IMG/VR virus record: IMGVR_UViG_3300046167_000405
Coordinates: 1-33,988 of that record
Direction: 5' to 3' (one strand)
Source of the DNA: a virus
Length of the DNA stretch: 33,988 bases
Of this stretch, positions 1 to 33,988 are shown in pieces. The notes beneath the pieces are model-generated. The model did no database searches. It had not been told where the DNA came from and was given only the letters and a program-made list of their open reading frames with translations. Each line of letters opens with the position of its first letter. The first letter of the stretch is position 1. The position numbers and the translations under genes are program-made.

Positions 1-28
1 TTTACATATTTATAAAAAACTATTGTTT

Positions 29-36
29 CATTTTTG
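29..36 (+). promoter_or_regulatory. T-rich CATTTTTG element before portal start
   Basis: CATTTTTG followed by CA and then the GTG start is kept in both copies of the portal leader (also 30620-30627), although neighbouring bases differ. It resembles the Bacteroidota -7 element TAnnTTTG with C in place of T. No matching TTTG is seen about 21 nt upstream, so promoter activity is uncertain. Confidence 0.3.
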
Positions 37-41
37 CAATA

Positions 42-1262
42 GTGAATTTATTTGGGTTTGAAATCAAAAGAATCAATCCAGTTCTATCTGCAAAAAAAGG
101 TTTCTTAAATGCAAACTTTGGTGGAATGATTGGAAGAACACCAGTCACTGAAGAAACCGCAATGGGTTTATCAGCGTATTGGGCTGGAGTAAGAAGAATT
201 ACAGAATCAGTGGCAATGTTGCCAGTTGAAGTTTTTCGCAAACAAAACGGAAGGCGTGAAATAGTTGCACATCCAACAGAATACTTGTTGAATGCTGAAG
301 CAAATTATGAATCAATTTCTTTTGACTTCACACAAATATTAATCACATCCGCAATCAATCATGGTAATGGTTTGGCAATTATTGAACGTGATCAATTTGG
401 AACACCAACATCATTGGTCAATGTAACTCGTGAACAATGCGAACCAATAAAATATGATGATGAGATTTATTGGAAAGTTCAAGTCAAAGAAGCATACAAT
501 GAAACTGAATCGTTGCTTGTCAAAGATGCTGACATGATTAATCTTCGTGGGTTTGGAGTTGATCCAGTTGTTGGACTTTCGGCAATACAAGCACACAAAC
601 AAAATCTTGGTTTATCAATTGCAGCACAAGATTATGGGGCTGATTTTTTTAACAAAGGGAGTAGGATTGACGGCTTCATCGAATATCAGGGTGTTTTAAA
701 ACCTGAAACAAAAGATGCAATTAGTCAACAATGGGCTGCAAACTATGGACCAAATGGGACACGTGGAACTGCAATACTTGATGCTGGTTCAAAATATCAT
801 CGTATTGGACTTCCTCCAGCAGATGCTGAATGGATTTCAACACGTAAATTCCAAAAGAATGAGATTGCAACAATCTTGGGAATACCATCACACATGATTA
901 ATGAGATGGAGAATTCAACTTTTTCAAACATTGAACACCAGTCAATTGAATTTGTGACTTATTCAATTGGAACTTGGATTGAAAAGATTGAACAAGAATA
1001 CAGACGAAAACTATTAAAAGATACGGAAAAACTTGACCATTATTTTAAGCACAATGTTGATCGTTTACTTCGAACTGATGTCAAAACAAAAGGTGAATAT
1101 TATCGACTGATGACTGACATTGGTGCTTATAGCATAAACGATGTACTTGAACTTGAGGATAGGAATCCAATTGAGGGTGGTGATGAACGTTATGTCCAAA
1201 TAAATAGAATACCTATTCAGGACATGGATAATTATTATAAAAAGGAAGATGGCGAGTTATAG
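42..1262 (+). CDS. Phage portal protein (HK97-type), copy 1
   Basis: A 406-residue protein with the architecture of HK97-family (Phage_portal) portal proteins. Residues about 38-66 carry the typical stretch with AYWAGVRRITESVAMLPVEV, and the central part contains a SNIEHQSIEFV segment typical of this family. Portal proteins form the dodecameric ring through which terminase packages DNA and to which the neck proteins attach. The start is GTG; no earlier in-frame ATG exists and both copies of the gene keep the GTG. It overlaps the protease gene by 14 nt, the usual portal-protease-capsid order. The second copy at 30633-31853 differs at only 7 of 406 residues: two near the N-terminus (I/V, T/S), two in the middle (EYQG versus EFAG) and three near the C-terminus. 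Confidence 0.95.
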   Translation: MNLFGFEIKRINPVLSAKKGFLNANFGGMIGRTPVTEETAMGLSAYWAGVRRITESVAMLPVEVFRKQNGRREIVAHPTEYLLNAEANYESISFDFTQILITSAINHGNGLAIIERDQFGTPTSLVNVTREQCEPIKYDDEIYWKVQVKEAYNETESLLVKDADMINLRGFGVDPVVGLSAIQAHKQNLGLSIAAQDYGADFFNKGSRIDGFIEYQGVLKPETKDAISQQWAANYGPNGTRGTAILDAGSKYHRIGLPPADAEWISTRKFQKNEIATILGIPSHMINEMENSTFSNIEHQSIEFVTYSIGTWIEKIEQEYRRKLLKDTEKLDHYFKHNVDRLLRTDVKTKGEYYRLMTDIGAYSINDVLELEDRNPIEGGDERYVQINRIPIQDMDNYYKKEDGEL

Positions 1263-2154
1263 TGATTATCCTGATGCGGTTTCAAACAATGCAAAACGTG
1301 GCATTGAATTAAATGAAAAGGTTGGCAATAAATGTGCAACACAAGTTGGCAAAGTTAGAGGTCAACAACTTGCAAATAAAGAACCAATCACTGAAGATAC
1401 CGTCAAAAGAATGTTTTCATATTTGTCACGTGCTGAAGTGTATTATGATCCTGACAACACTGAATCGTGTGGAACTATATCGTTTTTGTTGTGGGGTGGC
1501 AAAGCTGGATTGAGATGGTCAGAAAGTAAATTAAAAGAAATTGATAAAAATAGAAAAGTAATGAATAAAATTGAAAGACTTGCAGAGGTTCGAAATATAA
1601 ATGAAGTTGAACGAACTGCACAATTTGTTATATCAACAGAATCCATTGACAGACATGGTACATCATTCAAACTTGATGGATGGGATTTGTCAACTTATGA
1701 CCGCAATCCAATTGTTGGATACAATCACGAAGTGAGTGGTTCTAATCCTGATACTATCATTGGAACATCACGAGTGTTTAGAGATGGAGATGCGTTGATT
1801 GGTGAAGTAACATTTGAACGTGAAGGAAACAATCCTTTGGCTGACAAAGTATTTAACAAAATGCAAGATGGTATTTTAAAGATGGCAAGTGTTGGAGCAA
1901 TTCCACATGAGTATCGTTATGGCAACAAAGAAGATGAGGACAGAAACACGATTTATTTCACACGACAAGAATTGGTTGAATGGTCAATTGTGAGTGCTGG
2001 TTCAAATCGTGATGCGTTCAAACGAAGTGCTGACCAAGTTGATGAACTTAAAAAATCACTTGAGGTTGTTGAAGAAGAAATTGAAATGGGACTTGAAACA
2101 AAATCAGCTTTGCGAAATTATAACAAAGTTAAAATTGTTACAAAGTACCTATAA
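1249..2154 (+). CDS. HK97-type prohead protease with extra N-terminal domain, copy 1
   Basis: A 301-residue protein. Residues about 115-270 match the prohead protease (peptidase U35) pattern: His160 in the GYNHEVSG segment, Ser214 in MASVGAIP, and an acidic residue near 244 in QELVEWSIVSAGS, giving a likely Ser-His-acid triad. The protease cleaves the scaffold part of the capsid protein during head maturation. Residues 1-100 form a separate domain beginning SDYPDAVSNNAKRG and ending near LWGGKAGLRWSESKLK; I do not recognise its function. It is nearly invariant between the two copies. The gene overlaps portal by 14 nt and lies 37 nt before the capsid gene. The acidic C-terminal tail varies in length between copies: the other has two extra residues. 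Confidence 0.93.
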   Translation: MASYSDYPDAVSNNAKRGIELNEKVGNKCATQVGKVRGQQLANKEPITEDTVKRMFSYLSRAEVYYDPDNTESCGTISFLLWGGKAGLRWSESKLKEIDKNRKVMNKIERLAEVRNINEVERTAQFVISTESIDRHGTSFKLDGWDLSTYDRNPIVGYNHEVSGSNPDTIIGTSRVFRDGDALIGEVTFEREGNNPLADKVFNKMQDGILKMASVGAIPHEYRYGNKEDEDRNTIYFTRQELVEWSIVSAGSNRDAFKRSADQVDELKKSLEVVEEEIEMGLETKSALRNYNKVKIVTKYL

Positions 2155-2164
2155 TCAAATAATT

Positions 2165-2191
2165 GATTTTTGTAGTATTAAAATTTAGAAA
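2165..2191 (+). promoter_or_regulatory. Leader of major capsid gene
   Basis: ATTGATTTTTGTAG followed by TATTAAAATTTAGAAA precedes the capsid ATG. The copy at 32761-32787 reads GTATAAAATTTAGAAG, and nearly the same string (GTATAAAATTTAGGAA) precedes the tail tube gene at 5036-5051. GATTTTTG (2165-2172) is one base from the Bacteroidota -7 consensus. I infer a late promoter and/or strong translation leader; there is no Shine-Dalgarno sequence. Confidence 0.4.
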
Positions 2192-3400
2192 ATGAGAAAT
2201 AGTAAAGTAATAAGAGAAGAAATTGGTGAAGTGAAAACTTCCCTTGATGCTCTTGAAAATTTAGTATCTGAAGAAAATAGAGATTTTTCTGAAGATGAAA
2301 AAGTATCATTTGATACAAACATGGAAAGATTAACTGAATTAGTTGATGAACTTCCAAAAGTAGAAAAAGAAGAAGAAATAAGAATGAAAGCAGCAAATTT
2401 AGGTGGAAGTCCAGTAGTGGCAGAAACTAAAGAAGAAAAAGAAATAGTAAGAGAATTTTCTTTTGGTAAAGCGGTAAGAGCAGCATTTGGTGGAAAACTT
2501 GATGGTGTTGAATTAGAAATGGCTCAAGAAGGTCAAAAAGAAATGACTGCAATTGGTCGAAGTGCAAATGGTGTTGTTATACCATCAATGATTTTGAACA
2601 GAGCGGTTGTTACTGAAAACGGAACTTCAGGAATTGAAACTCAAAGTTTTGTTGATGCAGTTTATGCAAACACAATTCTTGATGATCTTGGTGTTACTCG
2701 TGTAACTTCAACAACTGACCAACGTATTCCAATTTTGGGTGCAGTTACAACTCAATGGGAGGGAGAAACTGATGCAAGTGCAGATGGAGGTTCTGCAATG
2801 AGCAAAAAAGACCTTGCTCCAAAAAGACTTGCAAGTTTTGTCGATTTTAGTAAACAAGCCGCTATGCAGCACAACGAATCACTTGAATCAGCATTGAGAA
2901 ACTCAATTGCTCAAGCGGTTGGAGCAAAAGTTGAATATGCTTTATTTACTGATGATTCTTCAAACGGATCTTACAACTATTTAGGTCAAGGAAAAACTCC
3001 AGTAACAAATGCAAACATTACATCATTGATGATGGCACTTGTTGAGGAAGTACAATCAAACAACCACAACAGAGGTAATTTAGGTTTTGCAATCTCAAAC
3101 GATTTGTTTACCGAAGTTTATACTGCTGCACAAGTTAGTGGTGTTAATCCATTAATCATCAATGAAGCTATAATGGGAGTTCAAGCGAAGTTCTCAAACC
3201 AAATTGCTGACATAACTAATCCAGTTGCTTACTATGGTGACTTCTCAAAAGTTCAAATTTGCCAATTCGGTGGAGTTGAGATTTTAGTTGACCCATACAC
3301 ACAAGCGGTTAGCGGAACAAACAGATTAATCCTAAACTCATACTGGGATGCTGCACTTGTACAAGATGCTGCAATCAGCGTGGGTGGCTACACTGGATAA
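2192..3400 (+). CDS. Major capsid protein (HK97 fold), copy 1
   Basis: A 402-residue protein in the position and with the layout of HK97-like major capsid proteins. Residues 1-75 are charged and helical (EEIGEVKTSLDALENLV onward), as expected of the scaffolding delta domain that the upstream protease removes. The mature part begins near residue 85-110 and carries the family-typical GTSGIETQSFVDAVYANTIL and WEGETDAS segments. The C-terminus has EILVDPYTQAVSGTNRLIL, typical of the P-domain strand. The gene has its own leader and is followed 30 nt later by a strong terminator, which suggests separate high expression. The second copy (from 32788) differs at roughly 35-40 positions, mainly in the second half. 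Confidence 0.95.
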   Translation: MRNSKVIREEIGEVKTSLDALENLVSEENRDFSEDEKVSFDTNMERLTELVDELPKVEKEEEIRMKAANLGGSPVVAETKEEKEIVREFSFGKAVRAAFGGKLDGVELEMAQEGQKEMTAIGRSANGVVIPSMILNRAVVTENGTSGIETQSFVDAVYANTILDDLGVTRVTSTTDQRIPILGAVTTQWEGETDASADGGSAMSKKDLAPKRLASFVDFSKQAAMQHNESLESALRNSIAQAVGAKVEYALFTDDSSNGSYNYLGQGKTPVTNANITSLMMALVEEVQSNNHNRGNLGFAISNDLFTEVYTAAQVSGVNPLIINEAIMGVQAKFSNQIADITNPVAYYGDFSKVQICQFGGVEILVDPYTQAVSGTNRLILNSYWDAALVQDAAISVGGYTG

Positions 3401-3428
3401 TTCATTTATAGTAATTAGTTAATATATG

Positions 3429-3462: not shown

Positions 3463-3471
3463 AAAAAATCA

Positions 3472-4801: not shown

Positions 4802-5031
4802 GAATAGAATTGACAAAGGATTATGCAATCCATGCAAGAACACTACCTGAAGGAACACAATTGCGTGTATCTAACAAATTAGGTAAAGAATTAATTGGGT
4901 TAAAAGTAGCAAAAGCCCTTGATGGTTTTACTTTTGAAGAAGAAATTGAACACATCATTGAAGTGGCAATAGAAAATGAAGAAACTCCAAAAGTTAAAAA
5001 AGTTACAAAGAAGAAAAAATCTAATAAGTAA
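4798..5031 (+). CDS. Small lysine-tailed protein, unknown function
   Basis: A 77-residue protein I do not recognise. Residues 1-45 look like a compact alpha/beta fold (LPEGTQLRVSNKLGKELI), then an acidic stretch, then a strongly basic tail (KVKKVTKKKKSNK). It is translationally coupled to the gp10-like gene by a 4-nt overlap and comes just before the tail tube gene, so a minor role in head-tail assembly is possible but only inferred from position. Confidence 0.6.
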   Translation: MRIELTKDYAIHARTLPEGTQLRVSNKLGKELIGLKVAKALDGFTFEEEIEHIIEVAIENEETPKVKKVTKKKKSNK

Positions 5032-5059
5032 TATTGTATAAAATTTAGGAAATAAAAAA
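5029..5059 (+). promoter_or_regulatory. Leader of tail tube gene
   Basis: TAATATTG (5029-5036, one base off TAnnTTTG) is followed by GTATAAAATTTAGGAAATAAAA, sharing a 13-nt string with the leader of the second major capsid gene copy. A-rich sequence runs up to the ATG at 5060. I infer a late promoter/leader for a highly expressed structural gene. Confidence 0.4.
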
Positions 5060-5464
5060 ATGGGTATATTAAACGGAACGTTAGCAAAAATACAAGTTGC
5101 TGGTACAACCATAGCACACTTAACATCAAACTCATTGACATTTGATATGTCAACAAGGGATACAAGTACAAAAGACAGTTCAGGATGGAAATCGAGTTTA
5201 GAAGGACAGAAAAGCTTTAGCGGTTCGGCTGAAGGTTTTTTTGATGAGGATGCATCTTATGGGTATGAAGATTTATTTGATGCGTTTATAGCAAGAAATG
5301 CAGTAACAATAACTTACACAACCGATATTTCAGGCGAAACCGAATATAGCGGCTCGTGCTTTATAACATCACTTGAAAGAACTGATGGTCTTGAAGAATC
5401 AACCACATTTTCAGTGTCTTTTGAAGGAACTGGTGCAGTGACAAAAGGAACAGTTACACCATAA
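5060..5464 (+). CDS. Major tail (tube) protein
   Basis: A 134-residue, beta-rich protein resembling TP901-1/Phage_tail_2-type tube subunits: N-terminal MGILNGTLAKIQVAGTTIAH, central SSGWKSSLEGQKSFSGSAEGF, and C-terminal FSVSFEGTGAVT. Such proteins stack as hexamers around the tape measure. The length is typical of the short versions of this family. It has its own leader sharing a motif with the capsid leader and is followed by a terminator, in keeping with the high copy number needed. Confidence 0.88.
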   Translation: MGILNGTLAKIQVAGTTIAHLTSNSLTFDMSTRDTSTKDSSGWKSSLEGQKSFSGSAEGFFDEDASYGYEDLFDAFIARNAVTITYTTDISGETEYSGSCFITSLERTDGLEESTTFSVSFEGTGAVTKGTVTP

Positions 5465-5494
5465 GAAATTGATTTTTGTTATATTGTGAAAAAT

Positions 5495-5526
5495 GGGGGA
5501 TGGGGGTAACTTCATTCCCTTTTTTT
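5495..5526 (+). terminator. Rho-independent terminator after tail tube gene
   Basis: GGGGATG (5496-5502) pairs with CATTCCC (5513-5519) with one G-T pair and a 10-nt loop, followed by seven T. Read-through would allow lower expression of the downstream tail genes. Confidence 0.75.
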
Positions 5527-5533
5527 ATATTTG
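5526..5533 (+). promoter_or_regulatory. TATATTTG element before tail chaperone
   Basis: A perfect TAnnTTTG match starts within the terminator T-run and ends 4 nt before the ATG at 5538. No TTTG is present at 21 nt upstream, so this may be a weak promoter or a chance AT-rich match. Confidence 0.3.
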
Positions 5534-5537
5534 TAGC

Positions 5538-5825
5538 ATGATAAAAATTAAAAACAAAGAGTACAAATTCAAATTCGGTTTCAAAGCATTGTTGATGTAT
5601 GAAAAAGAAACTGGTTCATCAATTTCAGAAATGGGCGAAAATGTGACAATGAATATGATTGTTGAAATTGCTTATGCTGGAATGAAGGCATCAGGTGAAA
5701 AAGTCACAAAGGATTTCATTATTGATGCAATTGATGATGACATGGGTTTGATTAGTGTATTCACTGAAGCAATGCAAAATGATTTAAGTGCATTGGGTAA
5801 TTTAAAGGTTGAAGCAAAAAAGTAA
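5538..5825 (+). CDS. Tail assembly chaperone, short form (gpG-like)
   Basis: A 95-residue, mainly helical protein (NKEYKFKFGFKALLMYEKETG onward) located between the tail tube and tape measure genes, where siphoviruses encode gpG/gpGT chaperones that coat the tape measure before tube assembly. The start is the ATG at 5538; an upstream in-frame ATG at 5493 lies within the terminator. The gene ends GCA AAA AAG TAA, so the A AAA AAG slippery heptamer directly precedes the stop. A -1 shift there would produce the longer fusion with the next frame. Family assignment rests mainly on position, size and the frameshift signal. Confidence 0.8.
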   Translation: MIKIKNKEYKFKFGFKALLMYEKETGSSISEMGENVTMNMIVEIAYAGMKASGEKVTKDFIIDAIDDDMGLISVFTEAMQNDLSALGNLKVEAKK

Positions 5826-6160
5826 AATTGCCATTGACTAATTTCATAAGGGGTTTTGTGTTGGGTACGTTAAAACAAACTCCTTTGTGTTTGGAAAGTT
5901 ATTCAATGGTAGACATTTGGGATGCGTACGTTGGAAATCGTTTGAATGAAAATATAAACGCAAGATCATTGTGGGAAACTGCAAGATTGATTTCTTATGT
6001 CACGTTAAAATCACAAGGACAAAAAACAATGAAACGACCACAAGATTTGATGAAGTTTGAATGGGAAGAACAAAGCGGCAAAAAAGGAACAAAATCAAAT
6101 CCATACACAAAAGCAGAAATTGAGCAACTTAAAAAATTAAAACCAAACTGGTTCAATTAA
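5822..6160 (+). CDS. Tail assembly chaperone, -1 frameshift extension (gpT-like)
   Basis: This frame has no good start: its first ATG is at 5906, and otherwise only a TTG at 5828. It is open only from 5813 because a TGA in this frame ends at 5812, so the overlap with the upstream frame is 13 nt and contains the A AAA AAG heptamer (5816-5822). A -1 slip gives ...A K K then V K L P L T N F, a fused protein of about 207 residues. The extension has a conserved-looking helical part (WETARLISYVTLKSQG) and a basic C-terminus. It ends 1 nt before the tape measure gene. Confidence 0.82.
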   Translation, partial: VKLPLTNFIRGFVLGTLKQTPLCLESYSMVDIWDAYVGNRLNENINARSLWETARLISYVTLKSQGQKTMKRPQDLMKFEWEEQSGKKGTKSNPYTKAEIEQLKKLKPNWFN

Positions 6161-6161
6161 A

Positions 6162-8306
6162 ATGGCAAAAAAGACGATAAATTTTAGTGCAATTTTTGAC
6201 TTAAAAGCATTTAGCGATTCAAGTCAAAACTTACAAAGGGAACTGCGTAAATCAGGAAGAAAAATGCAGTCCATTGGTAAATCAATGACAATGTCATTGA
6301 CTGCACCAATTGCAATTATGGGTGGACTTGCAGTCAAAACGTTTGCCAACTTTGAGCAATCAATGGCAAAAGTTCAAGCCATTAGCGGTGCAGTTGGAAA
6401 AGATTTTCAAAACTTGACAAATCTTGCAAAGGATTTGGGTATTGCAACACGATTCAGTGCATCTGAAGTTTCAGATTTAATGTTGAATTACTCAAAACTT
6501 GGATTTAGTTCTGAAGAAATACAAAAAATCACAAGGGCAACATTAGACCTTGCACTTGCAACTGGTGAAGATTTGGCAATGTCTGCGGAAGTAGCTGGTG
6601 CAACATTGCGTGGATTTGGGTTAGATGCAAGTGAAATGACAAATGTCACTGATATAATGGCACGATCATTTTCATCATCTGCACTTGACTTGAACAAGTT
6701 CCAAGTTGCAATGAGTTCAGTTGCTCCAGTTGCACGAAATGCTGGTGTTACATTAAAGGAAACAACATCAATGCTTGGTGTACTTGCAAACAATGGTGTT
6801 GAAGCATCAACATCAGGAACTGCATTGAGAAACATCTTTTTAGAACTTGCAAAACAAGGGATGTCATTTGATGATGCAATGGCACAAATAAATAATTCAA
6901 CTAATTCCAATGCAACTGCAATGGACTTGTTTGGAAAACGTGGTGCAGCGGTTGCATCTATTTTGGCAAAAAATCAAATTGAAGTTGCTGGGTTAAATGA
7001 TAAATTAAGTGATACAAGCGTTAGTGCTAAATCAATGGCTGCAATTATGGATGCAACATTGGAAGGTGCAATGATGCGTTTGAAATCAGCAACTGAAGGA
7101 CTTGCAATTTCGTTTGGTGAAATCATGGCACCAGCGGTTGGATTTGTTGCTGAAATACTTTCAAAGATTGCAATGAGATTTGCAAATCTAAATCCATATG
7201 TAAAAACTGCAATCACTGTGTTTGCTGGATTAGTTGCGGTTCTTGGACCATTAGCATTTGCAATTGGTGGGATTAAATTAGCACTTGCAACTTTGATGGC
7301 AAATCCAATCATTTTATGGGTTGTTGGAATTAGTGCTGCACTTGCTGGACTTGTTGCGGTGTTTATGTATGTTAAAGACAATGCACAATTCTTTGCAGAT
7401 TTCTTTTATAATTTATGGGTAAACATTGCAAACAACACACTTGATGCGGTCAAAACAATAGCAAAAGGACTTGCAAAGTTTGCTGGTTTCTTTGGTATTG
7501 ATATTGGCATTGATAAATTCTTTGATAAGTTCAAACTTGAACCACGTGAAGCAACAAAGGAACTCAAGTCATTTAAAGAAACATTAAAAGGTATTAAAAA
7601 AGAAGTAACAGGTTTAACACAAGTTGGTGAAGATAGTGTTCTTGGTGTTACTCCTGAAGGTGGTGGAACAACTACTGGAACAACAAAATCAACCGCAATT
7701 GCAATACAAGCACCATCACAAAAAGGGATTGAAAATGTCACTTCACAAATTAGTGAAATGGCAAACCAAGCAATTGAGCCAATACAAATAAAAATTGAAC
7801 CATTAACAAATCAAGAATTAGGTCTTGTAACGCAAGCACAAAGAATTGGCATGAAGATGGGTGAAGCACTTTCAAGTGGTTTGCAACAATTAGCAACACA
7901 AGGTGCGGTGATGCTTGGTGAATTTTTAGGTGATGCAATGACTGGTGATTCAGATGTTCAAGAATTTGGTCAAGGTTTTATGAAAGCTATTGGTGGATTT
8001 ATGCAAACTTTTGGAGAGTCAATGATTGCAATTGGTATTGCCGAAAGTGCTATTGCAAAATCAATTGCACTTGGACCAGCAGGGGCTGGTCTTGCAATTG
8101 CTGGTGGTATTGCATTGATTGCAGCTGGAACTGCATTATCAAATATAAGTAAAAAAGGGATTGATATGAATGCTGGTGGTCCATCACCATCACCAACTGG
8201 TGGCGGAATGGGAACAATGGCATTGCAACCAATATCATTGGAAACAAAAATTTCAGGGCGTGATTTAATATTGGTTCAAAATAGAGAAAAAGGATTTACA
8301 AGATAA
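6162..8306 (+). CDS. Tape measure protein (TP901-type)
   Basis: A 714-residue protein that sets tail length and is ejected with the DNA. Residues about 50-300 match the PhageMin_Tail/TP901 core (FEQSMAKVQAISGAVGKDF, then LGIATRFSASEVSDLMLNYSK and MLGVLANNGVEASTSGTALR). A hydrophobic region follows at about 345-410 with at least two membrane-like segments (IMAPAVGFVAEIL; FAGLVAVLGPLAFAIGGIKLAL and LWVVGISAALAGLVAVFMYV). A second hydrophobic block lies near 640-665. The central part is Thr-rich (GGGTTTGTTKST) and probably flexible. At the usual ratio of tape length to tail length this suggests a fairly short tail, near 100 nm. Confidence 0.93.
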   Translation: MAKKTINFSAIFDLKAFSDSSQNLQRELRKSGRKMQSIGKSMTMSLTAPIAIMGGLAVKTFANFEQSMAKVQAISGAVGKDFQNLTNLAKDLGIATRFSASEVSDLMLNYSKLGFSSEEIQKITRATLDLALATGEDLAMSAEVAGATLRGFGLDASEMTNVTDIMARSFSSSALDLNKFQVAMSSVAPVARNAGVTLKETTSMLGVLANNGVEASTSGTALRNIFLELAKQGMSFDDAMAQINNSTNSNATAMDLFGKRGAAVASILAKNQIEVAGLNDKLSDTSVSAKSMAAIMDATLEGAMMRLKSATEGLAISFGEIMAPAVGFVAEILSKIAMRFANLNPYVKTAITVFAGLVAVLGPLAFAIGGIKLALATLMANPIILWVVGISAALAGLVAVFMYVKDNAQFFADFFYNLWVNIANNTLDAVKTIAKGLAKFAGFFGIDIGIDKFFDKFKLEPREATKELKSFKETLKGIKKEVTGLTQVGEDSVLGVTPEGGGTTTGTTKSTAIAIQAPSQKGIENVTSQISEMANQAIEPIQIKIEPLTNQELGLVTQAQRIGMKMGEALSSGLQQLATQGAVMLGEFLGDAMTGDSDVQEFGQGFMKAIGGFMQTFGESMIAIGIAESAIAKSIALGPAGAGLAIAGGIALIAAGTALSNISKKGIDMNAGGPSPSPTGGGMGTMALQPISLETKISGRDLILVQNREKGFTR

Positions 8307-8309
8307 TAA

Positions 8310-10958
8310 ATGAGTGGTGTAATATTTAGCAGTGAGTTAAGGTCAGACAATAACACACGATACAAAGTTGAATTGTTTGGTGATGATTACAACGGACTTC
8401 CAAAGGTTGAAATAATTGGTGGAACTGGAAACACATTTTACATCAATAAAGATTGGCGAGATTTTATTCAAGTTGGTCAAGATTTATTATTGTACACAAG
8501 TTCATCAACACAATCAGCAAATGTCACTGGTATTGTTTCAAACGGAATAACTACACAAATTACAACGGACCAAAGTTATTCAGCGACATACACACACATC
8601 GGTTCATCTGATATTGTTGCAAACCAATACAAACCAACATTTGCACCAAGATTGGTTGATTTAAAAACTGAATGGAAAGGTGAAGGTGATGAAATACTTG
8701 GTTCAATAAAGTCATCAAGCACATCAGTCACATATGCAAACAATGATCGTTATTTTGATAGGTTCTTTGAACAATACCAAATCACACAAGATAACAAACT
8801 AAAATTGTTGGTATATAGATACACAACGGATTGGGAATTGGATTGGGCTGGTATCATTGTAATGGACCTTGTTCAATGGTCAAACATAGATAAACCAAGA
8901 CCATATACATTCAAAGCCATTGATGGACTTGATGCACTTAAAAAATACGAGTACACACAAACAACATTATCGGTTAATAAAATACAAAGCAATATATTTG
9001 AGATTCTTGACATTCTTGGACTCAAACAATTTTGGGGTGCGTCTGATGCTTACATACGTGAATCAATTGAATATTCATCACGTGTACTTGAAGCAACCAC
9101 AACAACGAATGATTCACCAATTGATTACACATACATTCCTGACAATATGTTTATTGGTGACACAAATGAAAATCCAACACAATATTTGTCATATTATGAT
9201 GCACTGAAAGGATTAATGGATTTGTTCAGTTGTCGCATATACCATGCAAATGGTGTGTATTGGATTCAGCAAGTAAGGAATTTTGATGCAATTACAATTA
9301 AATATCGTGAGTATTTAAAAGATGGTACATATATTCATAACACATACACACATCAAAAGTCAGTTGGTAATACAGGGATTGAGAATTTAAACATATTAGC
9401 GGGTGGAACATTTGGTTATTTTGCTGGTGCTTATCGAACAAGAATTTTAGCAAAGCAACACATTGAGGGTAAGTTAACATTTGGAAGTGGTTTGTTTGTA
9501 TTTGGAACTGGTGTCACACAATCAATATCTGCAAACATAGGAACAATAAAAAGTGATGGTGTTGGTCACATAAGGGTTGGAATGCGTGTCCGTTTGGGTA
9601 ATTTAAAATTTGCAAATTATTCAACAAATATTGATTTAGAGATTTATAGTGGCAATAGATACATTAAAGGAGTAGGAAATGCACCACAACTTGAGGGTAA
9701 ATGGTATGATGATCCAAATTCAACAAATCGAAACTGGACTAAAATTGTAAAAAATACAAGTGGTGATACATATGTTTTTTTTGATACACCAGCAATAAAT
9801 TTTGAAGCGGACAACATGATTGTAAAAGTGAGTGCAACATATAATGGACCAATTGACACTGGTGTTGCATTTTATATTGATAATGTACAAGTATTGTTTC
9901 CTGAACTAACAAGCGATGATGAAAACACAATGATTTTGGAAGTTGAGAATCCGAGCGGTTTTTACACAAAGGAGGTTGAACTTGATCCTTTAATTATTGT
10001 AGATTCAGAAATTGGAACATCAACGATTGCAAAAATTCAGATTGATGAAAATTACAACAATACACAATCATTTAGTTTGGTTGAATCAACAACATGGGAT
10101 TGTGATTTTGACACATATCCATTTTTATCTTATGCTCGTGTAATGGAAGCAATGTCATTGCAAACAAAGCCAGTTGAAAAAATAATGAGTACAATTGTTG
10201 GTGATTATTATCCATATCAATCATTGGCATATAATGACAAGGTTTATGTGTTTAGTGGTTGCACACGTGATTATGGAATGGATGAAGTGAGTGGTGAATG
10301 GTTTGAACAAATATCTGCAAGAACTGGTGTTGCAATTAAAAGAATAAAAGACATCATTGATCCGGCTGATATATCAACAAACAAAGGTGAGGTGGTTGAA
10401 AACACTAATAAAATTTATAGAGGTATTGAAGAACTCACACCAATGCTTAACTCATCAGATACATATGCAGTATTCCAAAAAAACAGAGTTATTGAAGATG
10501 GCGGTGTTTTTGAGGGGGTTGATTTTATTGAAGAATTTTTTCCTGACAATCACGTTGTTCAGCAAATAAACATTCCACCATATGAAGGAAACAGAATTTA
10601 TGAAGGTGATATTTTAAGCGTTATAAATTCAAACAATAACAATGAAACAGATTATTTTGTTGTGACTGCTGATGTTCTTCCAAATGCAACATTTATTCCA
10701 GTTGTTCAAAAGGAAACAACATATCCAATAAGTCAAGGTGATATTCCAACATTTAAAAAGGGTGAGGTAACGGAATCAAACAAAGTACGTGCAGACCTAT
10801 TTCAAATGAAAGGCAATGCACTTCCACCAACATCAGAAAGTGGTGGTGGTGGTGACTATTTTAAAAATGGTGAGTTTATGTTTTATGGTAGTCATATTTA
10901 TTGGCGAGATCAAAACGGCGATTATCATTCACTGCAAGGGAACACACATCATCCATAA
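8310..10958 (+). CDS. Large tail-tip / distal tail protein
   Basis: An 882-residue protein immediately after the tape measure (3 nt gap), the position of distal-tail and tail-associated (Dit/Tal) proteins. It is beta-rich and Asn/Thr/Tyr-rich, with no membrane segment. The N-terminal third contains FAPRLVDLKTEWKGEGDEIL and a YRYTTDWELDWAGIIVMDLV stretch typical of Bacteroidota phage tail proteins of this size, followed by an alpha/beta region (YTFKAIDGLDALKKYEYTQT). A central part, about 370-560, is a probable beta-sandwich. No catalytic motif is visible. I infer it forms the tail tip or baseplate hub to which the later adhesins attach. Confidence 0.7.
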   Translation: MSGVIFSSELRSDNNTRYKVELFGDDYNGLPKVEIIGGTGNTFYINKDWRDFIQVGQDLLLYTSSSTQSANVTGIVSNGITTQITTDQSYSATYTHIGSSDIVANQYKPTFAPRLVDLKTEWKGEGDEILGSIKSSSTSVTYANNDRYFDRFFEQYQITQDNKLKLLVYRYTTDWELDWAGIIVMDLVQWSNIDKPRPYTFKAIDGLDALKKYEYTQTTLSVNKIQSNIFEILDILGLKQFWGASDAYIRESIEYSSRVLEATTTTNDSPIDYTYIPDNMFIGDTNENPTQYLSYYDALKGLMDLFSCRIYHANGVYWIQQVRNFDAITIKYREYLKDGTYIHNTYTHQKSVGNTGIENLNILAGGTFGYFAGAYRTRILAKQHIEGKLTFGSGLFVFGTGVTQSISANIGTIKSDGVGHIRVGMRVRLGNLKFANYSTNIDLEIYSGNRYIKGVGNAPQLEGKWYDDPNSTNRNWTKIVKNTSGDTYVFFDTPAINFEADNMIVKVSATYNGPIDTGVAFYIDNVQVLFPELTSDDENTMILEVENPSGFYTKEVELDPLIIVDSEIGTSTIAKIQIDENYNNTQSFSLVESTTWDCDFDTYPFLSYARVMEAMSLQTKPVEKIMSTIVGDYYPYQSLAYNDKVYVFSGCTRDYGMDEVSGEWFEQISARTGVAIKRIKDIIDPADISTNKGEVVENTNKIYRGIEELTPMLNSSDTYAVFQKNRVIEDGGVFEGVDFIEEFFPDNHVVQQINIPPYEGNRIYEGDILSVINSNNNNETDYFVVTADVLPNATFIPVVQKETTYPISQGDIPTFKKGEVTESNKVRADLFQMKGNALPPTSESGGGGDYFKNGEFMFYGSHIYWRDQNGDYHSLQGNTHHP

Positions 10959-22221: not shown

Positions 22222-22773
22222 ATGATAAAAAACACAAAGATTTCAATCTTTAAATCACTTTTTAAGTCATCGGATGTCCCCTATGATGTCCAACTTGACC
22301 AATCACTTAAAAGAATAAGAGAAGGAAAGTCAAAACACATCATTGATAAGATGATGACATTGGAAGGTGATGCACGTTCCAAACTAAAAAATCAATTACC
22401 TTGTATCATCTTTGGTGGTGTATTTACACAACGTAAAAAGTCAGGACTTAAAGAACATAGTGGTCTTATGGTATTGGATTTTGATAAGATACCAAATAAT
22501 AAGATGGATATGATGTTTGACCAGCTGAAACAAAACAAACATATTGTTTCAGTATTTATGTCACCATCACGAAATGGATATAAAGCCATTGTGTCAATAC
22601 CAAAATGTAATGCAAAAGAACATGAACAATATTTTAAGCAGTTTAACAAGGATCACTTGTATGACTATTTTGATGGTGCTACTTGCAACGTTGACAGAGT
22701 TTGTTTCGAATCATACGATCCAAATATTTACATTAATTATGAAGCTATTCAGTATGCATCCAAAACTGGTTGA
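22222..22773 (+). CDS. VirE-N/BT4734-like primase (AEP-type)
   Basis: A 183-residue domain of the BT4734/VirE N-terminal family, a primase-polymerase related to archaeo-eukaryotic primases. Visible motifs: GLMVLDFDKI with Asp86 and Asp88 as the metal-binding pair, FMSPSRNGYKAIVSIP (Ser114-Gly119), and DRVCFESYDPNIYIN. It makes primers for the helicase encoded next. Its C-terminus runs into the SF3 helicase frame with a 20-nt overlap; in many relatives the two are one polypeptide. Removing one base from the AAAA at 22761-22764 would fuse them into a protein of about 774 residues. Confidence 0.88.
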   Translation: MIKNTKISIFKSLFKSSDVPYDVQLDQSLKRIREGKSKHIIDKMMTLEGDARSKLKNQLPCIIFGGVFTQRKKSGLKEHSGLMVLDFDKIPNNKMDMMFDQLKQNKHIVSVFMSPSRNGYKAIVSIPKCNAKEHEQYFKQFNKDHLYDYFDGATCNVDRVCFESYDPNIYINYEAIQYASKTG

Positions 22774-24547
22774 TGATGGTTTTCTTATAGCTGACAAAGT
22801 TCCAACCATTCCAATCAATGATGATTTTAAAAAGATTGATTTAATAATGAAGTTTAACTGGCAAAAGGATTTCATCGAAGGTGAACGTAATAATTTTATC
22901 TTGGACATTGCCAGTGCATTTTGTGAGTATGGTGTTCAAGAAATAAATGCAGTTAACTACATTCTTAACAATGTAGTTGTTGGTGATTTCAGTGAAGATG
23001 AAACAAAGAACACAATTAAGAGTGCATATAGAATAAGACAATTTGCAATTAAATACTTTGAGGATTATAATAAAATAGATAGTATTAAAAAGGACCTTAA
23101 ATATGGCAAAGAAAAAGTAAAGGAACTGCACAACATTAATGATGATGTTTATGATCATATATCTGATGAATCAGAATATGAAGATTTTTGGTATTATGAT
23201 AAGAAACAGAACATTAAAATTGATCCTTTAAAGTATAAACTATTTTTGGAACGCAATGGATTTAAGAAGTTTTTCTTTGCTGATAGTCTTAAACCATCAT
23301 TTGTAAAAATTAAATCAAATATTGTATCTGAAACATCAACCGAAATAATAAAGGACTATGTTTTAAATTATCTACTGGACAATAATGAGATTGATGTTTA
23401 TTCATATGTAGCTACATATCAAAATCTATTCACTGATTCATTCTTGACAATACTTGAAACAATTGACCTGATGATGTTGAATGATACACAACACAAATCA
23501 TTTATTGCATTCAGGAATGGTATTTTGGAAGTTACAAAGGACAAATTACATCTTAATCAATATGTAAATGTTAATGGGTATATATGGAAGAACCAAATAA
23601 TTGATAGGGATTTTACTGAAACGGACAATCTTGATAATGATTATCAAAAATTTATTAATAACATAAGTAATGGTGAACCATTATCTATTGAATGTACAAT
23701 TGGTTATTTATTACATACCTATAAGAATAAGATTGACAACAAAGCAATTATATTAAATGATGAGGTAATTAGCGACAATCCGGAAGGTGGCACTGGAAAA
23801 GGTTTATTTGTGCAAGGTTTAAAAGAAATTAGAAGGGTTGGCATATTAGATGGAAAGTCGTTTGACGATAAGAAATCGTTTCCATATCAGACAATTAGCC
23901 AAGACACGCAAATATTGGTCTTTGATGATGTTAAAAAGAACTTTGACTTTGAATCAAAGTTTAGTTTAGTTACTGAAGGAATAACATTAGAACGCAAAGG
24001 AAAGGATGCTATTAAGTTAAACGTTGAGGAATCACCAAAGATGTTAATATCAACTAACTATGCAATTAAAGGTGAAGGTAATAGCCATGATAGACGAAGG
24101 CATGAAGTTGAGGTGGCACAATATTATAATTCTGATTTAACACCTTATGATGATTTTGGTCGAACATTGTTTGATGATTGGGATGAAAACGAGTACACGT
24201 GTTTTGACAACTACATGGTTAAGTGCATTCAATTATATTTCACACACAAACTAATTAAGCAAACCAATGCCAAGAATATCAAATTGCGTAAATTCATATC
24301 AGAAACAAGTCAAGAGTTTTACGAATGGTGCAACTATGATGGAACTGAATTGTTTAATGTTAGACTTAACAAAAGAAATATGTTTGACCAGTTTGTGAAT
24401 GATTACCAAGATTACAAAAAATGGTTAACACAAAAGAAATTCAACATTTGGGTTAAGAAGTATGCAAACTATATTGGTGCTACATACACTGAAGGTCATA
24501 CGAATGGTGATCGTTGGTTTATGGTTGAATATGATTTACCTTTTTAA
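22754..24547 (+). CDS. SF3 / D5-like replicative helicase
   Basis: A 597-residue protein. Residues about 28-100 are a primase-C-terminal-like helical region; AFRNGILEV (252-260) and the ATPase core follow: Walker A NPEGGTGKG (342-350), Walker B QILVFDDV (386-393), and sensor-type MLISTNYAI. This is the superfamily 3 layout of phage and plasmid replicative helicases. I start at the ATG at 22754; an earlier in-frame ATG at 22544 would overlap the primase gene by more than 200 nt with low-complexity sequence. It ends 3 nt before the methyltransferase gene. It may be the second half of a fused primase-helicase. Confidence 0.88.
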   Translation: MHPKLVDDGFLIADKVPTIPINDDFKKIDLIMKFNWQKDFIEGERNNFILDIASAFCEYGVQEINAVNYILNNVVVGDFSEDETKNTIKSAYRIRQFAIKYFEDYNKIDSIKKDLKYGKEKVKELHNINDDVYDHISDESEYEDFWYYDKKQNIKIDPLKYKLFLERNGFKKFFFADSLKPSFVKIKSNIVSETSTEIIKDYVLNYLLDNNEIDVYSYVATYQNLFTDSFLTILETIDLMMLNDTQHKSFIAFRNGILEVTKDKLHLNQYVNVNGYIWKNQIIDRDFTETDNLDNDYQKFINNISNGEPLSIECTIGYLLHTYKNKIDNKAIILNDEVISDNPEGGTGKGLFVQGLKEIRRVGILDGKSFDDKKSFPYQTISQDTQILVFDDVKKNFDFESKFSLVTEGITLERKGKDAIKLNVEESPKMLISTNYAIKGEGNSHDRRRHEVEVAQYYNSDLTPYDDFGRTLFDDWDENEYTCFDNYMVKCIQLYFTHKLIKQTNAKNIKLRKFISETSQEFYEWCNYDGTELFNVRLNKRNMFDQFVNDYQDYKKWLTQKKFNIWVKKYANYIGATYTEGHTNGDRWFMVEYDLPF

Positions 24548-24550
24548 ATT

Positions 24551-25123
24551 ATGAATATAACAAACGAAGATAATATGGACCTTATGGCAAGGTATGAGGA
24601 CAATCACTTTGACCTTGCTATTGTTGACCCACCATATGGTGGAAATGATGCAATTGGTTTAAAGGATAATAAAAAACAAAGTAAACAAGCTACAAAAAGA
24701 ACAAACTACAAAGTATTTGATAATGTTGCACCAAGTGTTGAGTATTTTAATGAACTAAAAAGAGTTAGTAGAAATCAAATAATTTGGGGAGTAAACTTTT
24801 ATAAAAATTATGATTTAAGTGGTGGCAGATTATGTTGGGATAAAAAAGGAACTGCATTTGGTAGGGCTGAACTTGCTTATTTATCTATGACTAAAAGTGT
24901 TAATATTTGTGAAATTGTATGGAATGGGATGCTTCAACAAGATATGAAAAACAAAGAAATAAGAATACACCCAACCCAAAAACCAGTTAAGTTGTACGAA
25001 TGGCTATTAATGAACTACGCAAAAGAAGGTGATAAAATACTTGATACACATCTTGGTAGTGGCTCAATTGCTATTGCGTGTCATAATTTAGGTTTTGATT
25101 TGACTGCTTGTGAACTTGACTAA
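24551..25123 (+). CDS. DNA methyltransferase (beta-type, N6-A/N4-C), C-terminus frameshifted
   Basis: The intact frame gives 190 residues with the DPPYGG catalytic motif (motif IV, about 26-31) early and the AdoMet-binding motif I-like LDTHLGSGSIAIACHNLGF near the C-terminus: the order of beta-class methyltransferases (N6_N4_Mtase). HPTQKPVKLYEWLL is also typical. The conserved end DKEYYDAAMKRL lies in the +1 frame: removing one base at 25120-25124 extends the protein to 25196 (214 residues). It probably modifies phage DNA against host restriction. Confidence 0.88.
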   Translation: MNITNEDNMDLMARYEDNHFDLAIVDPPYGGNDAIGLKDNKKQSKQATKRTNYKVFDNVAPSVEYFNELKRVSRNQIIWGVNFYKNYDLSGGRLCWDKKGTAFGRAELAYLSMTKSVNICEIVWNGMLQQDMKNKEIRIHPTQKPVKLYEWLLMNYAKEGDKILDTHLGSGSIAIACHNLGFDLTACELD

Positions 25124-25186
25124 GGAGTATTACGATGCAGCTATGAAAAGGTTGAATAATCATAAACTACAACAAAGTTGTTTTAA

Positions 25187-26418
25187 ATGGAGTTAAGAGA
25201 TTATCAAAAGGATATTGTGAGGCGTGGTGTTGACATCATTGCAGACCATCGTTTGCTTTATTTGCAAATGGAAGGTCAGGACTGGCAAAACACTAACATC
25301 ACTATCAATATGTGAAGAACTTGGTGCATCAAATGTTTTATTCATAACTAAAAAGAAAGCCATTAGCAGCATTCAAGATGATTATGATAAGTTTGGGTTT
25401 AGCTTTGATATAACAATAATAAACAATGAATCACTGCACAAAGTAGATGGTGACTTTGATATTTTGGTATCGTGATGAACATCATCGAAATGGTTCGTTT
25501 CCAAAGCCAAACAAATCAACTAAACTAATCAAACAACGTTGGTCCACATTGCCAATGATATTTTTATCAGGTACACCAAATGCTGAATCGTATAGTCAAG
25601 TTTATCATCAATATTGGGTCAGCATACATTCACCATTTAAACAATGGACCAATTTCTACAAATGGTCAAAAGAGTTTGTGAATGTTACCGAACGCAACTT
25701 TGGTTATGCTAATGTCAAAGACTATTCAAGTGCTGACTATAATAAAATAAAACCTTATATTGATAAACATATTATTACATACACACAATCAGAAGCTGGA
25801 TTCGAATCTAATGTCAATGAACACATCTTATGGTGTGATATAAAGGCAAAGCACACATGACATCATTAATACATTAAAGAAGGATAAAATTGTTTTGGGT
25901 AAAGCTGGAGCAATCATAGCAGATACATCAGTCAAGATGAAAAACAAGATACATCAACTTGTGCAGTGGCTCATGTATTCTTGAAGATGGTAGTGTTGTG
26001 ATACTTGACACATCCAAAGCTGAATACATACGTGATAAGTTTAAAGGGCAAAAGATTGGTTTGTTCTATAAGTTTAAAGGTGAACTGGATATTCTTAAAC
26101 AAGTGTTTGGTGATAGCTTATGCACTACATTAGATGAGTTTCAATGGTAGTGATAAGAACATAGCACTTCAGATCATATCAGGTCGTGAGGGCATATCAT
26201 TACGTGAAGCTGATGCGTTGGTGTATTATAATATTGATTTTAGTGCAATCAGTTACTTCCAGTCAAAAGATAGGATGACAACAATGGAAAGGAAGAACAA
26301 TGATGTGTATTGGGTATTTGCTCGAAAGGGTATTGAATCTAAAATATATAAGAGTGTTACTAATAAAAAGGACTATACTTTAAGAATGTTTAAAAGGGAT
26401 TATGAACTACCAAAGTAA
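25187..26418 (+). pseudogene. SNF2-type DEAD/DExH helicase, five frame breaks
   Basis: The restored reading gives about 408 residues: start MELRDYQKDIVRRGVDIIAD, motif I VRTGKTLTS, motif II DEHHRNG, motif III FLSGTPNAES, then a C-terminal lobe with QIISGREGISLREA and motif VI QSKDRMTTMER. The frame is broken near 25271-25275, 25462-25475, 25844-25858, 25957-25963 and 26139-26142. Each break is explained by one extra base, and removing five bases makes the total length divisible by three. Between breaks the sequence keeps perfect family motifs, so either the breaks are sequence errors or the gene is very recently damaged. Such helicases occur next to VRR-NUC nucleases in many phage replication modules. 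Confidence 0.8.
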
Positions 26419-26645
26419 AGTAATAAAGGAATATAAGGACAAAGGGTATATGGTGTTAAACATTATTAGATTAAGTGAGAATGGGTTTCCTGACCTTATG
26501 TGCTTAAAAGATAGTAAGGTTGTGTTTATTGAATGCAAAGACTGGTGCTGATACCTTAAAGCCATTACAACGATATAGGATTGACCAGCTGCGTGAAATG
26601 GGCTTTGAAGCTATGTGTTTGAAGGATGATAAAATAATTTATTAA
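26402..26645 (+). pseudogene. VRR-NUC nuclease, one frame break
   Basis: The restored product has about 80 residues with the VRR-NUC pattern: GFPDLMCLKDSKVVFIECK (the G-x-PD and E-x-K catalytic motif), a Gln in TLKPLQRYRI and LREMGFEAMCL at the end. One extra base near 26536-26542 breaks the frame after IECK. The start overlaps the helicase by 17 nt, a common pairing in phages. The nuclease probably acts on branched or single-strand flapped DNA. Confidence 0.78.
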
Positions 26646-26650
26646 TTTTG
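26618..26650 (+). promoter_or_regulatory. Promoter inside early region
   Basis: TTTG (26618-26621), 21 nt, TAATTTTG (26643-26650): full match to both Bacteroidota elements with the same spacing as the promoter at 22179. The ATG at 26658 follows 7 nt later. The -33 box lies within the end of the VRR-NUC gene. Confidence 0.65.
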
Positions 26651-26657
26651 TAGTGAT

Positions 26658-26953
26658 ATGACAAAAGAAGAACAACAAGAATTTTTTGATGAGTACATTA
26701 ATAAGATGCGTGATGTACTACTTAACTAAGGGTGATGACTATGCTAATGCAGATAGGTTGTCAAACTTCAAGATGGCTGGTCAAATAGCTGGTGGCAATG
26801 CACAACTTAATTGTCTTAAACCTTATAGCAACAAAGGTTGCAAGACTTGGTGTGTTACTTAATAGTAATGACAAACCAAAGAATGAATCAATCAATGATT
26901 CAATCATGGACCTTGCTAACTATGCAATGCTACTTGCAATGATTAATAAATAA
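26658..26953 (+). pseudogene. DUF1599 (nucleotide modification associated domain 1)-like protein, two frame breaks
   Basis: The restored product has about 97 residues: KGDDYANADRLSNFK, then LNLIATKVARLGVLLNS, KPKNESINDSIMDLANYAML. This matches the conserved core of DUF1599-like proteins, thought to act with nucleotide-modifying or MazG-like enzymes. Two single extra bases (26722-26726 in TTAAC and 26817-26821 in TTAAACC) break the frame. It sits beside a DNA methyltransferase, in keeping with DNA modification or nucleotide metabolism. Confidence 0.7.
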
Positions 26954-30583: not shown

Positions 30584-30632
30584 TTAAATATTTTACATAT
30601 TTATAAAAAAGTATTATTTCATTTTTGCATTA

Positions 30633-31853
30633 GTGAATTTATTTGGGTTTGAAATCAAAAGAATCAATCCAGTTCTATCCGCAAAAAAAGGTTTCTTAAA
30701 TGCAAACTTTGGTGGAATGGTTGGAAGAACACCAGTCACTGAAGAATCCGCAATGGGTTTGTCAGCATATTGGGCTGGTGTAAGAAGAATTACAGAATCA
30801 GTGGCAATGTTGCCAGTTGAGGTTTTTCGCAAACAAAACGGAAGGCGTGAAATTGTTGCACATCCAACAGAATACTTGTTGAATGCTGAAGCAAACTATG
30901 AATCAATTTCTTTTGATTTCACACAAATATTAATCACATCGGCCATCAATCATGGTAATGGTTTGGCCATTATTGAACGTGATCAGTTTGGAACACCAAC
31001 ATCATTGGTTAATGTAACACGTGAACAATGTGAGCCAATAAAATATGACGATGAGATTTATTGGAAAGTTCAGGTCAAGGAAGCATACAATGAAACTGAA
31101 TCATTGCTTGTCAAAGATGCTGACATGATAAATCTTCGAGGGTTTGGAGTTGATCCAGTTGTTGGACTTTCGGCAATACAAGCACATAAACAAAATCTTG
31201 GTTTATCAATTGCAGCACAAGATTATGGAGCAGATTTTTTTAACAAAGGGAGTAGGATTGATGGCTTCATCGAATTCGCAGGTGTTTTAAAACCTGAAAC
31301 AAAAGATGCAATTAGTCAACAATGGGCTGCAAACTATGGACCAAATGGGACACGTGGAACTGCAATACTTGATGCTGGTTCAAAATATCATCGTATTGGA
31401 CTTCCTCCAGCAGATGCTGAATGGATTTCAACACGAAAATTCCAAAAGAATGAGATTGCAACCATTCTTGGAATACCATCTCACATGATTAATGAAATGG
31501 AAAATTCAACGTTTTCAAACATTGAACATCAGTCTATTGAATTTGTGACTTATTCAATTGGTACGTGGATTGAAAAGATTGAGCAAGAATACAGACGAAA
31601 ACTATTAAAAGATACAGAAAAACTTGACCATTATTTTAAGCACAATGTAGATAGATTATTGCGAACTGATGTCAAGACAAAAGGTGAGTATTATAGATTG
31701 ATGACTGACATTGGTGCTTATAGCATTAATGATGTACTTGAGTTAGAGGATAGAAATCCAATTGAAGGCGGTGATGAACGTTATGTGCAAATTAATAGAA
31801 TACCTATTGATGACATGAAGGAATACTATAAAAAAGAAGATGGCGAGTTATAG
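30633..31853 (+). CDS. Phage portal protein, copy 2
   Basis: A 406-residue portal, the second version of the gene at 42-1262, with 7 amino-acid differences, all conservative or in exposed-looking positions (for example EFAG for EYQG and the C-terminal PIDDMKEYYKK for PIQDMDNYYKK). GTG start kept. Here its true upstream context is visible: it follows the terminase region and a small unknown gene, the normal order in this phage group. Confidence 0.95.
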   Translation: MNLFGFEIKRINPVLSAKKGFLNANFGGMVGRTPVTEESAMGLSAYWAGVRRITESVAMLPVEVFRKQNGRREIVAHPTEYLLNAEANYESISFDFTQILITSAINHGNGLAIIERDQFGTPTSLVNVTREQCEPIKYDDEIYWKVQVKEAYNETESLLVKDADMINLRGFGVDPVVGLSAIQAHKQNLGLSIAAQDYGADFFNKGSRIDGFIEFAGVLKPETKDAISQQWAANYGPNGTRGTAILDAGSKYHRIGLPPADAEWISTRKFQKNEIATILGIPSHMINEMENSTFSNIEHQSIEFVTYSIGTWIEKIEQEYRRKLLKDTEKLDHYFKHNVDRLLRTDVKTKGEYYRLMTDIGAYSINDVLELEDRNPIEGGDERYVQINRIPIDDMKEYYKKEDGEL

Positions 31854-32751
31854 TGATTATCCTGAAGCGGTTTCAAACAATGCAAAACGTGGCATTGAGT
31901 TAAATGAAAAGGTTGGCAATAAATGTGCAACACAAGTTGGAAAAGTTAGAGGTCAACAACTTGCAAATAAGGAAGCAATCACTGAAGATACTATCAAACG
32001 CATGTTTTCATATTTGTCACGTGCTGAAGTATATTATGATCCTGACAACACTGAAGCGTGTGGAACAATATCGTTTTTGTTGTGGGGTGGCAAAGCTGGA
32101 TTGAGATGGTCAGAAAGTAAATTAAAAGAAATTGATAAAAATAGAAAAGTAATGAATAAAATTGAAAGACTTGCAGAGGTTCGAAATATTAACGAAGTTG
32201 AACGTACTGCACAATTTGTAATATCAACCGAGTCAATTGATAGACATGGAACATCATTCAAACTTGATGGATGGGATTTGTCAACTTATGACAGAAATCC
32301 AATTGTTGGATACAATCATGAAGTGAGTGGTTCTAATCCGGATACTATAATCGGAACATCACGAGTGTTTAGAGATGGTGAAGCATTGATTGGTGAAGTA
32401 ACATTTGAACGTGAAGGAAACAATCCAATTGCTGACAAAGTATTTAATAAAATGCAAGACGGCATTTTGAAGATGGCAAGTGTTGGTGCAATACCGCATG
32501 AATATCGTTATGGCAACAAAGAAGATGAAGATCGAAACACAATTTACTTTACTCGCCAAGAATTGGTTGAATGGTCAATTGTGAGTGCTGGTTCAAATCG
32601 TGATGCGTTCAAACGAAGTGCTGACCAAGTTGATGAACTTAAAAAATCACTTGAGGTTGAAGAAGAAATTGTTGAACAAGAAATGGGACTTGAAACAAAA
32701 TCAGCTTTGCGTAATTACAACAAAGTTAAAATTGTTACAAAGTACATATAA
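31840..32751 (+). CDS. HK97-type prohead protease, copy 2
   Basis: A 303-residue version of the protease at 1249-2154. The catalytic His and Ser motifs (GYNHEVSG, MASVGAIP) are unchanged. Differences include D/E at YPEAV, P/A at KEAITED, V/I at DTIKR, S/A at TEACG, and a two-residue insertion in the acidic tail (EVEEEIVEQEMG). The N-terminal extra domain is again intact. Confidence 0.93.
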   Translation: MASYSDYPEAVSNNAKRGIELNEKVGNKCATQVGKVRGQQLANKEAITEDTIKRMFSYLSRAEVYYDPDNTEACGTISFLLWGGKAGLRWSESKLKEIDKNRKVMNKIERLAEVRNINEVERTAQFVISTESIDRHGTSFKLDGWDLSTYDRNPIVGYNHEVSGSNPDTIIGTSRVFRDGEALIGEVTFEREGNNPIADKVFNKMQDGILKMASVGAIPHEYRYGNKEDEDRNTIYFTRQELVEWSIVSAGSNRDAFKRSADQVDELKKSLEVEEEIVEQEMGLETKSALRNYNKVKIVTKYI

Positions 32752-32787
32752 ACAAATAATTGATTTTTGTAGTATAAAATTTAGAAG

Positions 32788-33988
32788 ATGAGAAATAGTA
32801 AAGTAATAAGAGAAGAAATCGGTGAAGTGAAAACTTCGCTTGATGCTCTTGAAAATTTAGTTTCTGATGAAAATAGAGATTTTTCTGAAGAAGAAAAAGT
32901 GTCATTTGACACAAACATGGAAAGATTAACTGAATTAGTTGATGAACTTCCAAAAGTAGAAAAAGAAGAAGAAATACGAATGAAAGCAGCAAATTTAGGT
33001 GGCAGCCCAGTAGTGGCAGAAACCAAAGAAGAAAAAGAAATAGTTAGAGAATTTTCTTTTGGTAAAGCGGTAAGAGCAGCATTTGGTGAAAAGCTTGATG
33101 GTGTTGAATTAGAAATGGCTCAAGAAGGTCAAAAAGAAATGAACGCAATTGGTCGTAGTGCTAATGGTGTTGTTATTCCTTCAATGATTTTGAACAGAGC
33201 GGTTATAACTGAAAACGGAACTTCAGGAATCGAAACTCAAAGTTTTGTTGATGCAGTTTATGCAAACACAATTCTTGATGATCTTGGTGTTACTCGTGTA
33301 AGCACAACAACTGATCAACGTATTCCAATTTTGGGAGCAGTTACAACTCAATGGGAAGGTGAAACAGATGCAGCTGCTGATGGTGGTTCTGCAATGACTA
33401 AAAAAGACCTTGCACCACGAAGAGTTGCATCATATGTTGATTATAGCAAGCAAGCCAGTATGCAGCATAACGAATCACTTGAATCTGCATTGAGAAACTC
33501 AATTGCTCAATCTCTTGGGTCCAAAATCGAATATGCAGTTTTTACTGATGATTCTGCAAATGGTGCATATGATTATTTAGGTAACGGAAAAACTCCAGTG
33601 ACAAATGCAAACATCACAAACTTGATGATGGCATTAGTTGAGGAAGTTCAATCTAATAACCACAACAGAGGTAATTTAGGATTTGCAATCTCAAATGATT
33701 TATTCAATGAAGTTTACACAGCTGCACAAGTTAGTGGTGTAAATCCATTAATCATTGATGAGGCAATAATGGGAGTTCAAGCGAAGTTTTCAAACCAAAT
33801 TGCTGACATAACAAATCCAGCGGTTTATTATGGTGACTTTTCAAAAGTTATGATTGCACAATTTGGTGGAGTTGAGATCTTGGTTGATCCATACACACAA
33901 GCAATCAGCGGAACTAATAGATTAATCCTTAACTCATATTTCGATATGAAATTAGTTCAGGATGCCGCTATTTCAGTCGGAACATTCG
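32788..33988 (+). CDS. Major capsid protein, copy 2 (partial at window end)
   Basis: Open to the window edge after 400 complete codons; by alignment with copy 1 only two codons and the stop are missing. The delta domain is nearly unchanged, but the mature part differs at many sites: SYVDYSKQASM for SFVDFSKQAAM, SLGSKIEYAV for AVGAKVEYAL, ANGAYDYLGNGK for SNGSYNYLGQGK, VMIAQF for VQICQF, YFDMKLV for YWDAALV. This is roughly 90% protein identity by eye, compared with about 98% in portal. Confidence 0.93.
   Translation, partial: MRNSKVIREEIGEVKTSLDALENLVSDENRDFSEEEKVSFDTNMERLTELVDELPKVEKEEEIRMKAANLGGSPVVAETKEEKEIVREFSFGKAVRAAFGEKLDGVELEMAQEGQKEMNAIGRSANGVVIPSMILNRAVITENGTSGIETQSFVDAVYANTILDDLGVTRVSTTTDQRIPILGAVTTQWEGETDAAADGGSAMTKKDLAPRRVASYVDYSKQASMQHNESLESALRNSIAQSLGSKIEYAVFTDDSANGAYDYLGNGKTPVTNANITNLMMALVEEVQSNNHNRGNLGFAISNDLFNEVYTAAQVSGVNPLIIDEAIMGVQAKFSNQIADITNPAVYYGDFSKVMIAQFGGVEILVDPYTQAISGTNRLILNSYFDMKLVQDAAISVGTF

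Follow-up and report, generated by a model that had tools for sequence, protein, structure and literature searches.

Clustered +1 frame breaks in a tailed-phage metagenome record are probably left by mixed-strain assembly

Introduction

Are the four adjacent genes that appear broken between 25.1 and 26.8 kb of the IMG/VR record IMGVR_UViG_3300046167_000405 really lost by the phage, or does the record misrepresent them? The question was addressed on the whole record, a stretch of 33,988 bases that is called the window here. It carries tailed-phage genes for a portal, a prohead protease, a terminase, a primase-helicase, a DNA methyltransferase, a helicase, a VRR-NUC protein and a DUF1599-like protein. 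As the closest annotated DNA matches of the methyltransferase come from Nonlabens and Flavobacterium phages, the host is likely to belong to the marine Flavobacteriia. The methyltransferase gene (24551-25180) is also a swapped module, with flanks at least 90% identical to close relatives and the gene itself only ~75-80% identical; its best matches (82% nt, 88% aa) belong to other phage contigs.

The genes concerned, with their frame breaks, are:

22222..24547, + strand: primase-helicase (BT4734-like N, PriCT-1); one doubled-letter +1 break at ~22756; intact 774-aa relative in contig L095
24551..25180, + strand: DNA methyltransferase (N6_N4_Mtase); +1 break at ~25121, at a C/T (Asp) polymorphism
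25188..26418, + strand: SNF2/ResIII-like helicase; five +1 breaks at ~25273, 25472, 25847, 25959 and 26140; intact 407-aa relative in L095
26402..26645, + strand: VRR-NUC nuclease; one +1 break at ~26539, at an A/G (Lys) polymorphism; intact relative in L095
26658..26954, + strand: DUF1599-like gene (its Pfam DUF1599 match lies under Pfam's cut-off); two +1 breaks, at ~26727 (C/T, Asn) and ~26816 (Leu codons CTT and TTA merged); intact relative in L095

Results

Three-frame translation, together with the intact gene order of L095, revealed nine +1 steps between 25,121 and 26,816, distributed over the methyltransferase (one), helicase (five), VRR-NUC (one) and DUF1599-like (two) genes, exactly as a previous sequence-only reading had assigned them. 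Their sites, listed above, were placed with the help of relatives. A tenth +1 break was located at ~22756, at the primase-helicase junction, where the extra base was absent from 26 of 26 aligned loci, some of these being two pieces of one contig. Outside the broken stretch and this position the window is tiled by open genes, giving a density of nine breaks in 1.7 kb versus one elsewhere (open-gene tiling; 21,954 bases with at least four relatives); the region of ~9-21 kb, for which L150 was the only related contig, was judged by open frames. The earlier statement that the rest of the window is clean apart from that junction was upheld.

The same reading had described every lesion as one extra base. 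This held for the nine breaks but not for the tail of the methyltransferase gene, where a -1 change at 25177 is compensated by a +1 change at 25185. The pair is private to the window (absent from 16/16 relatives), alters the last residues of the enzyme and abolishes a TAATG stop/start overlap present in the relatives; no clean two-allele reading was found for it. Within the gene bodies of the stretch no lesions other than the +1 steps were detected. No nonsense substitutions were present either, as had been claimed, and only six private letters were counted in 1,533 columns, five of them synonymous.

For the comparison with related phages, up to 16 close and distinct IMG/VR contigs spanning the stretch (~87-94% nt identity) were gathered by protein-guided scans. 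The extra bases at all nine sites were missing from every relative aligned there, the genes of these relatives were open, and the protein pieces between the breaks were 93-100% identical to the proteins of close relatives. Because all the relatives lacked the extra bases and kept open genes, the breaks are, in these alignments, private to the window record, and intact copies of the genes are common. When viral contigs were scanned for exact 31-letter matches, no other record with the insertion at 26140 was found.

When the extra bases were compared with the variation among the 16 relatives, the window was found to contain the two letters of a polymorphic column next to each other at 10 of 10 sites, including all five breaks of the helicase. 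For instance, an Asp codon that is GAC or GAT in the relatives appears as GACT in the window, Phe (TTC or TTT) as TTTC, Asn (AAT or AAC) as AACT, and Glu-Val (GAA GTC or GAG GTC) as GAAGGTC; at 26,816, the Leu codons CTT and TTA of the relatives form one merged string. Eight of the nine pairs in the cluster are synonymous, the exception being 25,847 (Glu/Gln), for which both letters are present in relatives.

Around 23% of the columns are polymorphic, and insertions simulated into the relatives were used as the null for this column-level test, which was passed by 16% of random-base, 21% of duplicated-base and 16% of non-duplicated-base insertions. Under this null, nine of nine has a probability of 6e-8 to 7e-7. 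A stricter test that required identical flanks was passed by six of the nine sites versus 10% expected, with 25121, 25959 and 26816 passing at the column level only; site 22756 requires alleles that differ at several letters. By comparison with these relatives, the extra base represents, at each site, the other allele of a polymorphism that occurs naturally and is in most cases synonymous.

The sequence-only reading had ascribed the breaks to a stretch of poor consensus, and had taken the placement of most sites in short A, T or G runs as part of this picture. Generic sequencing error of this kind, due to low depth or an insertion-prone platform, would place extra bases at random or in short runs, and would account for nine lesions that are clustered and all +1, several of them within such runs. 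The runs, however, arise because one of the two alleles often matches the adjacent letter, and the simulated 16-21%, which already includes run-extending insertions, is far from the 10 of 10 observed. In addition, private letters (those found in no relative), counted with the break sites excluded, amounted to 3.9 per kb inside the stretch, compared to 4.8 in the left flank and 6.2-6.4 in the right. Near the ends of the record this rate was only 0.6-1.3 per kb, since many more relatives are available there and more alleles are sampled. Thus, substitution errors were not raised in the stretch relative to its adjacent flanks, in a test that an almost insertion-only error platform would escape. 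As private substitutions were no commoner inside than outside, neither a generic poor consensus nor decay fits the sequence record, and the claim of poor consensus was not borne out. Generic error is accordingly left as an improbable explanation, though the best placed of the alternatives.

When all fetched loci were compared with one another (580 kb summed by locus, so that some contigs entered repeatedly), private +1 insertions of the doubled type were also found in L096 (two), L150 (two), L093, L083 and L189, together with another doubled pair in L096 that adds two bases. L096, L093 and L150 come from sample 3300046167, L083 from 3300011253 and L189 from 3300011258. The positions of doubled alleles in these contigs are:

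L150:1950-1972
L096:3226
L096:4220
L096:7276-7290
L093:5408
L083:2701
L189:5822

Some private insertions elsewhere were not of the doubled type, one of them in a G run (L093), and some had few supporting relatives.

Two of these contigs allowed the doubled letters to be placed relative to strain switches. L150 is letter-identical to the window over 1,956-10,915, with two doubled letters at the left edge of the block and another strain beyond it. The 8.96 kb block (L150/L197; IMGVR 3300046167_000181) is bounded on both sides by at least 5% divergence, and could be explained by genuine recombination within a swarm of strains or, alternatively, by mosaic assembly. L146, which belongs to another sample, matches the window letter for letter across the left edge of the block (231-2,367), and therefore the L150 joint is the doubtful one. 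Similarly, over the 917 bases that end at its first doubled letter L096 is the same as L095, and immediately beyond this letter the two diverge. With doubled letters at strain switches in both contigs, these letters mark, as far as sequence comparison can tell, joins between the sequences of two strains.

A joint of this sort would also fall at the same place if related phages recombined out of register, leaving tandem alleles at mismatches in a live phage. Against this, L146 has continuous, un-doubled sequence across the L150 joint, and four genes would be lost together if nine joints of this kind lay within 1.7 kb. We know of no repair route that yields tandem alleles. Mis-registered recombination is thus a distant contender; if true, it would mean that real genomes acquire clusters of frame breaks where they recombine.

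Mixing of strains was also apparent at the ends of the window, in two copies of the same region:

1..3342, no strand: left copy of an imperfect terminal overlap (portal, prohead protease and next gene); 92% identical to 30592-33938
30592..33938, no strand: right copy of the overlap, from a different strain of the same genes; 92% identical to 1-3342

This overlap of 3.35 kb contains three gaps under gap-tolerant scoring, its genes are intact in both copies, and the differences fall mostly at the third codon position (12, 2 and 61 at the three positions in the portal gene). The 92% identity and the intact genes in both copies suggest that sequences of two different strains were used to close a circular or permuted genome, whose true unit length would be ~30.6 kb. 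The terminal overlap and the abrupt end of the 8.96 kb identity with L150 are independent signs of strain mixing.

Discussion

The nine breaks are, in all probability, a mixed-strain assembly artefact in which both letters were kept where co-occurring strains differ. They are not a biological feature, and in nature the phage genes are almost certainly intact. In the proposed scheme, the metagenomic contig would have been built from several co-occurring strains of a tailed phage, and the sequences of at least two of them would have been joined or averaged at 25.1-26.8 kb and at ~22.76 kb. The joining or consensus step may have represented each single-letter mismatch between strains as a pair of gaps, one insertion and one deletion; if a letter was then preferred over a gap in each column, at even support, every difference would become two adjacent letters, and so a +1 frame break. 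Such a step, itself deduced from the pattern, would leave +1 lesions only, located at natural polymorphisms and with clean sequence between them. Several short joins seem somewhat better suited than one long overlap of two near-identical strains, because different parts of the broken stretch have different nearest relatives. Among the relatives, no clean contig of either contributing strain was found across 25.1-26.8 kb.

One candidate for this step, by our own reasoning, would be a long-read polisher with a heavy substitution penalty. Another would be merging of the 454/Newbler type: in one JGI metagenome pipeline (PMC5369317), contigs shorter than 1,800 bp were assembled with Newbler and merged with minimus2, a procedure that could combine overlapping contigs of two strains into such a consensus and that is only a candidate for this record. 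A simple flow-order (454/Newbler flow-space) model of the breaks was not favoured, as the real order, TACG, did not stand out among six flow orders tried.

That the breaks are an artefact rather than decay, as the earlier reading had concluded, is consistent with the intact relatives and the lack of a substitution excess; it is the kind of artefact that has to be revised. Real gene decay, in which the phage recently lost these genes through single-base insertions, would also produce breaks private to one record. Nevertheless, it would be expected to leave mixed lesions, stops and traces of relaxed selection, whereas nine +1 events were found in four adjacent genes, with no nonsense changes and no excess of amino-acid changes, with five of the six private substitutions synonymous and with each insertion adding an alternative natural allele. 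Decay is thus very hard to sustain. Programmed +1 frameshifting or recoding through the extra bases, which could be argued from steps that are all +1 and from the conserved proteins between them, can be practically discarded, as none of the sites occurs in any relative, they share no common motif by eye and the extra letter is always an allele of the neighbouring polymorphic column.

With respect to known systems, the window resembles chimeric or strain-collapsed metagenomic contigs, in which co-occurring strains are joined and identical blocks between contigs end abruptly, but it differs from them in that the joint leaves tandem alleles and breaks reading frames. Indel errors truncate predicted proteins in long-read assemblies, as discussed in PMC13087279, and the window shares with the errors described there the single-base frame breaks in otherwise conserved genes; in contrast, its extra letters are natural alleles and not noise, and substitutions are not raised. 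A text search of the literature did not find a description of the doubled-allele mark.

These results take away what looked like an instance of gene loss or recoding. They also supply an easy way to recognise an error that recurs in databases, namely a private +1 break whose two adjacent letters both occur, as alleles, in a single column. Six contigs, drawn from three metagenomes or more, carried the mark, so a broken gene in a viral metagenome record should be checked for doubled alleles before it is called a pseudogene. The artefact is of low biological interest by itself, but a useful warning sign in viral metagenome records.

Finally, an intergenic run of ten G was observed at L093:3260, in an A+T-rich phage, and it is conserved at the matching place in the window and in ~13 relatives.
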